From assembly GCA_016342355.1 (NCBI GenBank), contig JAEINP010000006.1:62001-126000 (forward strand): 64,000 nucleotides of DNA, in the 5' to 3' direction. A model generated the notes under the pieces. It was not told the origin of the DNA. It saw only the letters and a list, made by a program, of their open reading frames with translations, and searched no databases. This DNA is from Desulfatibacillum sp. GTDB lineage: Bacteria > Desulfobacterota > Desulfobacteria > Desulfobacterales > Desulfatibacillaceae. The position numbers were made by a program, and so were the translations under genes. Positions 47,960-52,695 of this stretch are shown piece by piece (the stretch's first letter is position 1; each line of letters opens with the position of its first letter).

Positions 47960-50734
47960 CTACGATTCATTTCGGGGTCCGGGGGTAGGCATATCCAGGG
48001 CTTGTCGGATGGCCTGGGAAAACTCCTTGGTAAGCAGGGGTTTGAGATAAGTGGAGCGAATGCCTATTTCCTTTGCTATTTTCCGCGAAATATTCCGGCT
48101 GTAACCCGTACACAGGATAATGGGCAGATCCGGACGGATGGTTAGCATTTCAGCCGCCAATTTATCTCCGGTAAGCCCGGGCATGGTCATATCCGTAATT
48201 ACCAGATCAAATGCCATGGGATTTTCCTTAAAACGCTCCAGGGCTTCCAGGGGGTCTGTGCAGGCAAAGACCTTGTAGCCCAGGACGCTGAGCATCCTCT
48301 CCCCGAATTTGACCAGCATTTCCTCGTCATCCACAAAAAGGATGGATTCGGAACCCTTAAGAATGGCGCAGTCATCGGGCAGAAGATCCTCATCCTCCCC
48401 GTAAACAGCAGGCAGCCAGATACTGAATGTGGTTCCCAGGCCCGGGGAACTGTTCACCGTAATAGTTCCGAAATGGCTGGTGACCACCCCTTCCACCACG
48501 GCCAGTCCCATGCCCGTGCCCTTTCCCTTTTCCCTGGTAGTGAAATAGGGATCAAAGATTCTTTGGAGGGTGGCTTCATCCATGCCCTGGCCATTGTCCG
48601 AGACCGAGAGTTTGAAAAAGGGGCCGGGAATGATGGAATGTGTGGCGGCCCATTCGTGATCGGTCACTTCTTCGGATTCCAGGGTGATCTCCACCACGCC
48701 ATTGTCCTCGGGGACGGCATGGCGGGCATTGGTGAGCAAATTCATCAGCACCTGATGGAGCTGGCTGGAGTCTCCCATGATTCTGTCGTTGTCACACAGG
48801 ACGATTTTCCGCACGGTAATGGTGCTGGGAAAGGACGCCCGGATAAGGGTAATCACCTCATCCAGCACGTTTTCCATGTGCATGAGGATTTGCTCCGGCT
48901 CGCTTCGTCTGCTGAAAGCCAGAATCTGGCGGATAATCTTTTTCGCCCTGTCCGAAGCTTGCAGGACCTGTTGGATATGGGGGTAGGAGGAATGGGCGGG
49001 CCCCAGGTCAAAGGCGACCAGTTCCCCATACCCGATTATGGCAGCCAAAATATTGTTGAAATCATGGGCTATCCCGCCGGCCAATGTGCCGATGGCCTCC
49101 ATTTTGCGGGATCGTTCCAACTGGGTTTCCAATTCCCTGCGTTTTTCCTGGGCCTCTTTCAACTGGCGCACATCAATAAAACTCTCCAGAAGGTGGTTTT
49201 TTCCGTCCAGAACCAGGGGAATAACCGTGGAAAGCACATTCACGGGCTGTTTCCGCATATCCAGAAGGGTTTTTTCCTGTCCTCCTGAGCGGGAATTCCG
49301 GACCAACTCACGGGAGGTTTCGGAAATTTCTTCAAAATCCTGCCACCGCCGCCCCACAAGGCTTTTGCCGTCCGAGGCCAGCAGCCTTTGGGCAAAGGGA
49401 TTGGCGTTGACCACCCTGCGGGTTTCCGCATCCACAATGATGATGCCGGCGCTGATGTTATCCAGCATGCTTTTCAGGCGTTCCTCGCTTTCGGCAAGGG
49501 CGTCCTGGGCGCGCCGCCGGTCCGCCATTTCGTCGATAAGCTGCTCGTTGGCCAAGCGCAATTCCCGGGTTCGTTCCTCTACCCTGTCTTCCAGGTATTC
49601 CCGGGATTTTTCCAGGCGGGAAAGGTTGCTGTAAAGCCTGCCAGCCATGGAGTTCAAGGTCTGGAGTACGATGTCAAATTCCCGAAACGTCCTGACTCCC
49701 CAGGGAATCTTGTACGAAACATCCTGGCCGATGCGGACGGTTTCCCTGACTATGCGCTGGGTTTCGTTGATGATCCTTCTGCCAATCAAAAAATTCAGGA
49801 CCACAAAGATGGCCGCAATGACCAGGGCCAATAACTGGAGCAGACGGGTGTTATGTTTCCCTCCTTCATAGCGACTGGCGAAATCCGAAGTAAGGCCCGC
49901 CAACAGGGTTTTGACCTCCTCGCTTTCGAAATTCAAACGGCTTTGCAGCTCCTTTTTTCGGCTTTCCATCAGCAGCAGATTTTCAAAGGATTTCTCGAAC
50001 CCCCTTCCCATAAGGAGAAGTTCTTCCACCAAAATGCCGTCCTGGGCGTCCAGGGAATAGTCCTCAAAAGCATTGACCGTGGCGTAAAATTCCTCGATAC
50101 GGGCTTTGAAGGCTTTTTCCACCTCAAAAACCTGCCTGCCCTGCTCCATGGCATGAAAGATGCCAAAGGTGTCGAAAAGGCTGGTTTGGATGGTCGAGGC
50201 CGCCTCCAGAATATCCACTTCCGAAGCGGATTTGACAGAACTTCGTTTGAAGTCATCCTCGGCGCCGTACCCCGGGGTTGTCTCTCCCCTTTCCATCATG
50301 TTGCGTATATAAACGATATGATGCTGGTGGATATACTTGACGCTGGCCAGCAGGTCCAGGAATCGGTCCCGCACCAGAAAATAGGAATTTTCCGATTCCC
50401 GGGTTATGGAATACAACTCTTCAAAAAGGCCTTCCCGTTTGCCAAGGACTTGTTGTTGCCGGGATTCGTGGCACTGGGAGCACCTGAGTTCCAGAAGCTC
50501 CAATTTCGCACCAACATCCTTATAATGGGAGGGGTCCCTAAGGGCTATGTCTTCACTCAGGGTCAGGGCGTAAAACGAATCCTTGGCGCCGGAAATGTAA
50601 TACAAATTTTCAAAGGCTTTGTTGGATTGGAAGGTCAACCAAAGGTTTGCCACGAGCAGGAAAAAGAACACAAAGATGATGCTCACCCCAGTCCACAAAA
50701 CACTTCGTAACGATCTACCTGAAAAGCCTGCCAT
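47960..50734 (-). CDS. Hybrid sensor histidine kinase with a periplasmic heme c motif
   Basis: The protein has about 924 residues from the ATG at 50734; an ATG at 50755 is less well placed. A membrane segment near 14-34 precedes a long periplasmic helical sensor. That sensor carries CSQCH (Cys85, Cys88, His89), a bona fide heme c attachment motif, which suggests redox or gas sensing. A second membrane segment lies near 305-325, then HAMP, coiled coil, PAS and HisKA (GGIAHDFNNIL). The ATPase domain has SDNGQGMD and GKGTGMGL. The C-terminal receiver has VITDMTMP. The kinase half is paralogous to the gene at 91-2712. The rhodanese gene ends 41 bases upstream, so the two form an operon. Confidence 0.88.
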   Translation of the reverse strand: MAGFSGRSLRSVLWTGVSIIFVFFFLLVANLWLTFQSNKAFENLYYISGAKDSFYALTLSEDIALRDPSHYKDVGAKLELLELRCSQCHESRQQQVLGKREGLFEELYSITRESENSYFLVRDRFLDLLASVKYIHQHHIVYIRNMMERGETTPGYGAEDDFKRSSVKSASEVDILEAASTIQTSLFDTFGIFHAMEQGRQVFEVEKAFKARIEEFYATVNAFEDYSLDAQDGILVEELLLMGRGFEKSFENLLLMESRKKELQSRLNFESEEVKTLLAGLTSDFASRYEGGKHNTRLLQLLALVIAAIFVVLNFLIGRRIINETQRIVRETVRIGQDVSYKIPWGVRTFREFDIVLQTLNSMAGRLYSNLSRLEKSREYLEDRVEERTRELRLANEQLIDEMADRRRAQDALAESEERLKSMLDNISAGIIIVDAETRRVVNANPFAQRLLASDGKSLVGRRWQDFEEISETSRELVRNSRSGGQEKTLLDMRKQPVNVLSTVIPLVLDGKNHLLESFIDVRQLKEAQEKRRELETQLERSRKMEAIGTLAGGIAHDFNNILAAIIGYGELVAFDLGPAHSSYPHIQQVLQASDRAKKIIRQILAFSRRSEPEQILMHMENVLDEVITLIRASFPSTITVRKIVLCDNDRIMGDSSQLHQVLMNLLTNARHAVPEDNGVVEITLESEEVTDHEWAATHSIIPGPFFKLSVSDNGQGMDEATLQRIFDPYFTTREKGKGTGMGLAVVEGVVTSHFGTITVNSSPGLGTTFSIWLPAVYGEDEDLLPDDCAILKGSESILFVDDEEMLVKFGERMLSVLGYKVFACTDPLEALERFKENPMAFDLVITDMTMPGLTGDKLAAEMLTIRPDLPIILCTGYSRNISRKIAKEIGIRSTYLKPLLTKEFSQAIRQALDMPTPGPRNES

Positions 50735-50775
50735 ACGTCTATCTTCCCTGCACATATCCCCCGGTTGACGGGGAT

Positions 50776-51582
50776 TTAACGGCTCATTTCCACTGGATAT
50801 CCTGCTTTAATCCAGGCCCGCATCCCAAAACGCAGGCCCACAATATTGTCGTACCCGTGGTTATGAAGGTAGCGCATGGCAAAGGGATCCCGATTTCCGG
50901 TTTCGCTTACCAGGATAACCGTTCCAGTGCGGGGAATTGTATCGCGTTTAACTGGGTCGGCAAAATCATCCAGAAGCATGACCAACTGGGGGCATTTCGT
51001 ACTGATTACAGGCAGGTCCTTACCCTCGTTGTGCACCAATTCCGTCCTGTAATCCAGAATGGTGAACAAGGGATTGCCTTGCTTGTCCTTGCAATCTTCT
51101 ATATCGGTTCGACGGATGAGCGCAAGGAGTTCCTGAGCCTCCATGTAAGACCCCTCATACTCCGGCAGGGGCTCCTGGCTTTCTATTTCATACCCGGCCT
51201 TCGCCCAATCCTTGAGCCCTCCGTTGTATATCCTGATATTGGAAAAACCTAAATCCTTGATGGCGACCGCCACCTTGTAGGAAAAAACTCACCGGTATCC
51301 TTTGCAATATATAACTATGGGACGATCCTTATTGTCGCCAAGGCGGTGTACCGCACCCTCCGTATTGGCCCAGGGAACATTGATGGAGCCGGGAATGGCT
51401 TCATTCCGGAAAAGAAGCTCATCCAGGGCGTTCACCAACAGGAAATCCATCTTCCCCTCCTCCCGGTCTTTCAGCATGGCGTGCATTTCCTCGGTGGTCA
51501 CGATATCGAATCTCTCCATGGCCAGGGAGGAAAAAGGAAAAATATAAACCATCAGCATTACCCACAAAACAATTCGCTTCAT
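50776..51582 (-). CDS. Two-domain rhodanese, probable selenoprotein (in-frame TGA at 51289-51291)
   Basis: The reading frame is continuous from the ATG at 51582 to 50776 apart from one TGA, giving 268 residues with Sec at position 98. A signal peptide (about 1-21) is followed by rhodanese domain 1 with active-site loop YCKGYR-U-VFSY (Cys93, Sec98), where relatives have a second Cys. Domain 2 continues in frame (GFSNIRIYNGGLKDWAKAGY, then ILDYRTELV). Its active-site loop is VSETGNRDPF, with Ser at the Cys position, so it is probably inactive. Sequence after the TGA is fully conserved in style, which argues against decay. The downstream hairpin fits a bacterial SECIS. A periplasmic sulfur-relay or redox role feeding the adjacent heme-motif kinase is inference. 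Confidence 0.75.
51259..51274 (-). promoter_or_regulatory. Candidate bacterial SECIS hairpin downstream of the TGA codon
   Basis: On the mRNA strand GGUGGC pairs with GCCAUC (six pairs, one G-U) around the loop GGUC (51268-51265). The loop starts 20 nucleotides after the UGA, within the accepted 16-37 range. It begins with GG, as required by the bacterial SECIS model and as in E. coli fdhF. Confidence 0.7.
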
Positions 51583-51870
51583 ACAACCCTCCGGAATAGG
51601 CAGTTACCCTAAAAATCAATCCGATCTTTGCAAGCCTGACGGATGACAAGGGCTTTCAGTCAAATGCCGATGCAAGCATTGTACCGATGGAATCCAACTC
51701 CCGGACATTATGACTGAAAAAACCAGGGAACCCTCGAAACAGCGCACATACCCGCGTTAATGAGGAATACAAAAAAGGAGAATTGCCTTTACTGTTGCAG
51801 TAAATCATTATAGCAAAAACAAGGTCATAGGCCTGTGAAAGAAATAAAATTACAGCAAAGAAAGAATTCC

Positions 51871-52695
51871 ATGAACAACACAAGTAATGATTCCGTTTCC
51901 TTAAAAAAAAGTTTTTCATTCCGCCTTGGCACAACGTCCTATATCATTCCCGACGATGTCCTGCCCAATATTGTCTTTTTGGCCGACAAAATTGACGACG
52001 TGGAACTGGTCCTGTTCCAATCCGATGAAATATCCAACATTCCCACCCACGAACAAGTGAAGGAATTACGGAATATTGCTGATGACAAGGGCCTCTCTTA
52101 TACTGTGCACCTGCCCCTGGACACCTGGACAGGCAGCACGGACGAAGCCATCCGCCGGTCTTCCGTGGAAAAGATTAAAAGGGTGATGGACCGCATGGCG
52201 CCAGTGGCGCCAGTGGCGCCTTTCGCCTACATCTGCCATCTGCACGGGGAAAAGCGGGGCAAAAAGCCTGTCAACGATCCGGCGGCCTGGACGGCCCAAC
52301 ATGTCAAGTCATTGACAGAAATCCTCTCCATTGCGGAGCCCCGTGACATCTGCATCGAAACCCTGGACTACCCCTTTTCCATGGTGGAAAATATTGTGTG
52401 GGATTTAAACTTGTCTATTTGCCTGGATATCGGGCATCTGATTATCGGGGGATATGATGTGGAGGACCATCTGGACAAATACCTGGCCAGGGCCAGGGTC
52501 TTGCACCTTCACGGAGTAAACCAGGGCAAGGACCACACGGACATCTCTCATGTGGACCCTGCCCTGCTGAATGAACTCATGGAACGCATCAACAAGGATT
52601 CAGAACCGGAAAGGGTGTGCACCCTGGAGATTTTCAGCCAAAAGCATTTTGAACGATCCCTGAAAGTGCTGCGGCCCTACGCAAACCCGGCTTAG
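51871..52695 (+). CDS. cbiR: CbiR-like cobamide-remodelling phosphodiesterase
   Basis: The protein has about 274 residues from the ATG at 51871; a GTG at 51835 would add 12 residues. It resembles the CbiR family (AP-endonuclease-2 TIM barrel), which cleaves the nucleotide loop of cobamides so a different lower ligand can be attached. Barrel metal-site segments include SYTVHLPLD, CIETLDYPFS, CLDIGHLIIGGYD and VLHLHGVN. It lies beside the cobamide synthesis operon and converges on cobT with a 4-base overlap of the 3' ends (52692-52695). A tandem 9-bp repeat at 52198-52222 yields VAPVAPVAP in the protein. Confidence 0.83.
   Translation: MNNTSNDSVSLKKSFSFRLGTTSYIIPDDVLPNIVFLADKIDDVELVLFQSDEISNIPTHEQVKELRNIADDKGLSYTVHLPLDTWTGSTDEAIRRSSVEKIKRVMDRMAPVAPVAPFAYICHLHGEKRGKKPVNDPAAWTAQHVKSLTEILSIAEPRDICIETLDYPFSMVENIVWDLNLSICLDIGHLIIGGYDVEDHLDKYLARARVLHLHGVNQGKDHTDISHVDPALLNELMERINKDSEPERVCTLEIFSQKHFERSLKVLRPYANPA

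Follow-up and report, generated by a model that had tools for sequence, protein, structure and literature searches.

A rhodanese selenoprotein gene and its adjoining receptor gene in Desulfatibacillum and its relatives

Introduction

A rhodanese gene of Desulfatibacillum sp. carries an in-frame UGA within the sequence of its active-site loop. Is this codon read as selenocysteine (Sec, U in motifs) and, if so, what is the resulting selenoprotein for? We addressed both questions in the window, that is, the whole 64,000-nucleotide stretch of contig JAEINP010000006.1 that was analysed, and in related genomes. The consulted sections of a 2026 review count 119 prokaryotic selenoprotein families or subfamilies, include several rhodanese selenoproteins among the catalogue entries predicted by sequence alone, and list five rhodanese forms by motif, without architecture (PMC13188914, Table 1). 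Excerpts of another paper name a rhodanese-like domain and, separately, a histidine kinase as putative selenoproteins (PMC8318568). Going by these sources, rhodanese selenoproteins as such are already catalogued, and the surprising part of the present locus is the proposed partnership with a receptor. Among Creative Commons-licensed PMC papers, supplements excluded, we found none joining rhodanese, chemoreceptor, sensor domain and periplasm; within the literature on selenoproteins and sensor histidine kinases, the consulted part of PMC5109826 contains no rhodanese.

Results

Reading frame and fold of the Sec-rhodanese

A preliminary description of the locus, which left the strand unstated, had reported an in-frame TGA in a rhodanese loop CKGYR-U, an open frame beyond it and a likely split into two genes by standard gene calling. 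All three points held on the minus strand (Table 1). The active-site loop reads C93-K-G-Y-R-U98, with the UGA as codon 98 and sixth loop residue, and the frame past it stays open to a TAA, giving 268 residues in total when the UGA is counted as Sec. Mechanical ORF calling yielded ORFs of 97 aa (51289-51582) and 165 aa, the latter starting at a GTG, and thereby cut the Sec-rhodanese gene in two, a split that is now flagged.

Table 1. Coordinates of the Sec-rhodanese gene, its receptor neighbour and their features in the window
Feature	Position	Strand	Remarks
Sec-rhodanese gene	50776..51582	minus	268 codons + TAA stop; 20 orthologues
Start and stop codons of the Sec-rhodanese	ATG 51582-51580; TAA 50778-50776	minus	
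Signal-peptide-like start, residues 1-21	51520..51582	minus	by eye; model helix 2-14
Cys93 codon, first residue of active-site loop	51304..51306	minus	UGA in 9/20 orthologues
UGA codon read as Sec98, last loop residue	51289..51291	minus	UGA in 20/20 orthologues
bSECIS hairpin GGUGGC-GGUC-GCCAUC	51259..51274	minus	
GTG taken as separate gene start by mechanical ORF calling	51271..51273	minus	
Receptor gene (PAS, HisKA, HATPase_c, receiver)	47960..50755	minus	comparison with L064 favors start 50734
Conserved helical domain between two membrane passes	49850..50629	minus	residues 36-295 from ATG 50734

The active-site loop of rhodaneses usually lies between a strand and a helix and, in its classical six-residue form, follows the pattern C-x-x-G-x-R/T. 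In the AlphaFold2 model of the Sec-rhodanese (mean pLDDT 94.1), the loop takes this place, between strand 89-92 and helix 99-110. Its sequence departs from the classical pattern: CKGYRU keeps the catalytic Cys, has the Gly one place earlier and ends in Sec at the sixth position. The protein scored below the cut-offs of all eight NCBIfam models that it touched. Of the two rhodanese domains claimed in the preliminary description, the first was recognized by Pfam (PF00581, 64.1 bits against a cut-off of 22.2); the second went unrecognized by Pfam and rests on the AlphaFold2 model, in which it is visible, on a near full-length Foldseek match of this model to 6mxv and on weak phmmer matches of residues 167-266 to a rhodanese-like structure. 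Catalytic competence of domain 2 is not consistent, given that residue 226, which aligns by eye with a catalytic Cys, is S, T or C among orthologues. Throughout the 10 rows of alignment A1, C164 and C197 do not vary; they may form a structural disulfide. The signal-peptide-like N-terminus, read by eye, suggests export to the periplasm.

Conservation of the UGA and of the Sec machinery

While a single-protein query of genome contigs returned no relative, an alignment query returned 17. Together with the window gene, L088 and L038, these 17 sequences from named contigs constitute a set of 20 orthologues. All 20 carry UGA at codon 98, and nine also carry UGA at codon 93. In a wider alignment, both positions are Cys or Sec in each of the 28 rows; among 10 distant rows chosen by hand from the full-length matches, with L031 (CLSQQU) excluded, residue 98 is Cys in six and Sec in four. 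The homologue comparison proposed in the preliminary description thus came out in favor of Sec, as did its check of a sister strain: the congener Desulfatibacillum alkenivorans DSM 16219 (L064, NZ_FQZU01000028.1) has one in-frame UGA, again at codon 98, and its frame is otherwise free of stops. Relative to L064, dN/dS was 0.098 past the UGA and 0.13 ahead of it, with synonymous sites near saturation. Two of the 20 orthologues, both from metagenome assemblies, also contain a stop or frame break (L026/L076, in-frame stop; L036/L080, frame break) and entered the analysis as far as the break.

A tree of 18 orthologues (all except L080 and L088) and four outgroup rows indicated repeated exchange of Cys and Sec at position 93, with at least three switches forced by well-supported branches and six to seven needed under parsimony; even the close sisters L065 and L076 differ at this position. 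One and the same loop comes in a natural Cys/Cys, Cys/Sec and Sec/Sec series, well suited for asking what selenium adds. The double-Sec orthologues, like the conserved receptor gene next door, were absent from the first reading of the locus.

The Sec machinery, whose presence the preliminary description had left to be checked, is encoded in the same genome: tRNA-Sec (selC, 76 bits), SelB (392.1 bits), SelA (613.9 bits) and SelD (356.6 bits) all scored above curated cut-offs. SelB was above its cut-off in 31 of the 36 relatives tested and in 11 of the 12 among these that hold an orthologue; the remaining holder, G068, is an assembly of 80% completeness. The selD frame itself (L060, G000:C40:14689-15612) contains one in-frame TGA, and SelD is probably a selenoprotein too. 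In L065 (G210:C108:30340-34310), the Sec-rhodanese is preceded on the same strand, at a distance of about 1.3 kb, by selB.

A covarying hairpin downstream of the UGA

According to section 5 of the review, a bSECIS element has a loop of 3-9 nt with a G in the first two loop places, a stem of 4-16 bp, a distance of 16-37 nt from the UGA and an energy of -7.5 kcal/mol or lower (PMC13188914). The hairpin in the window, found just as previously described, begins 14 nt past the UGA and has six pairs and a GGUC loop; with its 4-nt loop starting in GG, 6 bp, a loop distance of 20 nt and -9.1 kcal/mol, it falls within these limits. For counting hairpins we used our own version of the published rules, with energy <= -7.5 kcal/mol. 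In control counts, a qualifying hairpin also followed 32 of 412 Cys codons in long ORFs of the window and one of the 27 TGA ends of its long ORFs, and the 60-nt fold at the UGA had a z of only -0.83. The hairpin alone is therefore weak evidence, and we rejected it as stand-alone proof of a selenoprotein.

What exceeds chance is the combination of a UGA at the same codon in every orthologue with a covarying hairpin at one place. The position of the hairpin is constant over the 20 orthologues, 95% of pair cells are standard pairs, and 12 of the 20 hairpins passed all bSECIS rules, including the energy threshold. Changes on both sides occurred in four of seven pairs, and the covariation score of 0.435 was matched in none of 500 shuffles and dropped to at most 0.171 when the partner was slid by 1-3 columns. 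Two of five covariation measures, namely the number of both-side-changed pairs (25/500) and further pair types (500/500), did not rise above shuffles. The loop-closing pair, both members of which fall on third codon positions by our reading, is G-C in eight orthologues and A-U in 12; a stem-internal mismatch is present in L064, L065 and L068. Complementarily, synonymous differences from L064 amounted to 0.218 over codons 99-110 and 0.758 over codons 111-268, and the ten-codon window starting at codon 101 had the highest identical-codon share of 237 windows (14 of the 20 orthologues), with a second, lower peak at codons 66-70 (14 orthologues).

Beyond the orthologues, hairpins passed in seven of eight other genes with U at the second site (seven CxxxxU homologues and the TsoB-like L019) and in one of six Cys homologues. 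In double-Sec genes, 15 nt separate the two UGAs. A single hairpin, 20 nt from one and 35 nt from the other, could thus serve both and would stay within the range of 16-37 nt given in the consulted section. Promoter and terminator patterns were no commoner than in shuffles.

A receptor gene next to the Sec-rhodanese gene

A receptor gene directly follows the Sec-rhodanese gene in all 18 testable loci, comprising the window, 16 of the 17 named loci and L088; the sequence of L079 ends too early for this assessment. Across the window and the 17 named loci, the rhodanese and the receptor/kinase group were the only families common to more than two of the 18. A 4-nt overlap of rhodanese and receptor genes occurs in L065, L074 and L077, and 1-5 nt separate the two in five more loci, indicating that their translation is probably coupled.

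The receptors have about 300 N-terminal residues in common, with two hydrophobic stretches in the window protein. The SLDAQDG core is invariant and the VxYIHxHH motif nearly so. The model of the window sensor is all helical (mean pLDDT 84.3). Outputs differ: of the five receptors scanned, four belong to the hybrid histidine kinases, and that of Fundidesulfovibrio agrisoli (L071:6788-9208) carries a GGDEF-EAL output on the same sensor domain. Five of 17 receptor domains (window, 50734-49691; L064; L069; L075; L078) contain CxxCH, which may be a c-type heme site. In eight of the 17, two partial ones among them, the counted stretch is free of Cys, and we therefore set aside a thiol switch on receptor cysteines as a general mechanism. 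The gene after the rhodanese in G442 (L107) likewise encodes a PAS-HisKA-HATPase-receiver protein; the sensor search did not report it, and its sensor region does not match the conserved domain.

On the other side of the Sec-rhodanese, and divergent from it both in the window (51835-52695, plus strand) and in L064, lies cbiR (NF041277), a gene of cobamide remodelling. As L064 is the sole one of the 17 named loci in which cbiR adjoins the rhodanese, a link to the nearby cobalamin genes was dropped.

Co-occurrence and distant homologues

Among 291 genomes of the order, 17 had a rhodanese match at E <= 1e-15, of which 10 (E <= 1e-40, a cut chosen after the list was seen) were orthologues. Rhodanese and sensor occurred together in 10 genomes, the sensor alone in one (G101) and the orthologous rhodanese alone in none, the 291 genomes apparently being the same draw in both searches; Fisher's exact test gave p = 1e-17, a statistic that ignores kinship. 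The G101 receptor (L120, G101:C127:465-3269) is an intact sensor kinase with CxxCH, and no rhodanese was seen by eye in the 464 nt upstream of it. A search of 395 genomes of the phylum returned the sensor from three, namely G540 and the two Desulfatibacillum genomes. In G540, the receptor (L123, G540:C70:2735-4333), with no rhodanese in the 9 kb read around it, lacks approximately residues 124-232, the site of both conserved motifs; this loss fits a role of the middle of the sensor domain in docking or response. A mirror-tree comparison of rhodanese and sensor gave r = 0.81 over 13 loci, ignores the species tree and was given no weight.

We also inspected the neighbors of 11 distant two-domain CxxxxC/CxxxxU homologues. 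A histidine kinase or chemoreceptor lies beside seven of these, directly adjoining in six cases and after an ORF resembling a second rhodanese by eye in the other; directly beside L110, L113, L116 and L119, no kinase or chemoreceptor was seen. We take this count of seven of 11 as a lead. The Cys-only two-domain rhodaneses L112, L114, L115 and L117 adjoin methyl-accepting chemotaxis proteins.

Probable structural likeness of the sensor domain to TorS and McpS

The best Foldseek matches of the receptor model were TorS sensor-TorT complexes (E 5.4e-4, TM 0.44-0.54). Structural comparison gave VIA Z 17.6 for McpS (2yfa; rmsd 2.5, 221 aligned) and 15.2 for TorS (rmsd 3.1, 234 aligned). Since unrelated helical rows reach Z 14, a TorS/McpS-like fold of the sensor is probable, not proven. 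At the sequence level, the TorS family model TIGR02956 matched the kinase part only, with 113.3 bits against a cut-off of 676.5, and Pfam did not report a helical bimodular (HBM) model for the receptors at E 0.001. McpS-type HBM receptors have a chemotaxis output, in contrast to the kinase or GGDEF-EAL outputs of the present family, in which the SLDAQDG motif is conserved.

Discussion

On computational grounds, we are nearly certain that the window gene encodes a selenoprotein; the protein would accordingly carry Sec at residue 98. That this Sec-rhodanese works with the receptor encoded next to it is a likely further step, and the strong linkage of the two genes renders the function of a rhodanese selenoprotein testable. 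For the nature of the signal, redox state or sulfane sulfur perceived through the 93/98 pair, we put the chances at even. Taken as a whole, our preferred reading, to which we give reasonable though far from full credence, is that of a periplasmic Sec-rhodanese that reports the redox or sulfane-sulfur state to its receptor, by analogy with TorT and TorS. With slightly less assurance, we propose a dedicated selenoprotein sensory module of the Desulfobacterota, in which a Sec-rhodanese of the CxxxxU or UxxxxU type would be the redox-reactive detecting subunit for a receptor family that shares one conserved helical domain and has exchangeable outputs.

Mechanistically, the UGA would be decoded by SelA, SelB, SelC and SelD with the help of the hairpin just downstream. 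The Sec-rhodanese would then form the detecting half of a two-part sensor, its operon partner being a two-pass receptor with a putatively TorS/McpS-like helical periplasmic domain. Cys93, or Sec in some relatives, could accept sulfane sulfur or become oxidised, and Sec98 could resolve or store this state as a selenenylsulfide or, in double-Sec forms, as a diselenide. The action of the rhodanese on the receptor domain, presumably through docking, would change with the state of the loop, and the receptor domain would in turn switch the kinase or, in Fundidesulfovibrio, the c-di-GMP enzyme up or down. If true, the task of this selenoprotein would lie in transmembrane signalling, where it would read sulfane sulfur or the periplasmic redox state, and the question arises of whether an exported Sec-rhodanese informs sulfate reducers of outside sulfur or redox conditions.

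The strongest competitor, which we consider possible yet clearly less probable, is a selenoenzyme without any signalling role, such as a periplasmic sulfurtransferase or a polysulfide/disulfide reductase that is merely encoded and regulated together with the receptor. The Cys/Sec pair within a rhodanese domain speaks for such an enzyme, and the UxxxxU spacing shared with the rhodanese domain of TsoB suggests redox cycling. However, the linked gene is a receptor in each testable locus rather than a sulfur or electron-transfer enzyme, no other gene family recurs in more than two loci, and different outputs occur on a common sensor domain. We consider it improbable that the selenoprotein acts on the receptor itself, for example by persulfidating or reducing its periplasmic cysteines or a c-type heme site: the CxxCH motifs of some receptors, that of the window included, speak for this reading, but nearly half of the receptor domains counted contain no Cys in the stretch examined. 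Finally, a true stop at the UGA, leaving a pseudogene, a protein of 97 aa or two separate genes, the second starting at the GTG, would account for the two mechanically called ORFs and draws on the fact that such a hairpin is by itself not rare, but it is rejected as a very improbable nonsense mutation or gene split on the conservation of the UGA and purifying selection on both sides of it, and is further contradicted by the covarying hairpin, the full Sec machinery and the distant homologues with Cys at position 98.

The periplasmic reporter that we favor has a close counterpart in TorT-TorS. Excerpts of the literature describe binding proteins controlling kinases (PMC6321045) and the binding of TorT to TorS (PMC3795677). 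Both systems comprise a hybrid kinase, and a periplasmic partner is proposed here too. Unlike TorT, which has a binding-protein fold, the proposed partner is a Sec-rhodanese.

Among the rhodanese selenoproteins, TsoB (NF045694, a rhodanese/DsbD fusion-like protein; form 5, UxxxxU, in the consulted part of the catalogue) has the same loop spacing as the Sec-rhodanese and Sec at both loop ends, as do the nine double-Sec orthologues. TsoB is, however, a long fusion with a 572-position model, against which the window protein scored 52.2 bits (cut-off 805); the window gene lacks a membrane or thioredoxin part, and a receptor gene is linked to it. A TsoB-like gene was found in a genome of the same taxonomic family as that of the window (L019, G004:C65), with a UDGMAU rhodanese followed by a long membrane-protein and thioredoxin-like part and with two in-frame TGA codons. 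As for the other forms in the consulted table, the UxxG motif of forms 2 and 4 and the CxU motif of form 3 are unlike the window protein (PMC13188914), which also stayed below the cut-off of the form 3 LYCAU rhodanese model (NF041203; 51.1 against 115 bits). The UxxS motif of form 1 fits UVFS in the window, several orthologues having UVFA instead; with WP_010941598.1, the comparison was by motif only. Two further loci from one family of the same phylum, L045 and L049, contain rhodanese-like ORFs with CRGGGU or CRGYGU and a GGUC-loop hairpin, and perhaps represent the catalogued form 1.
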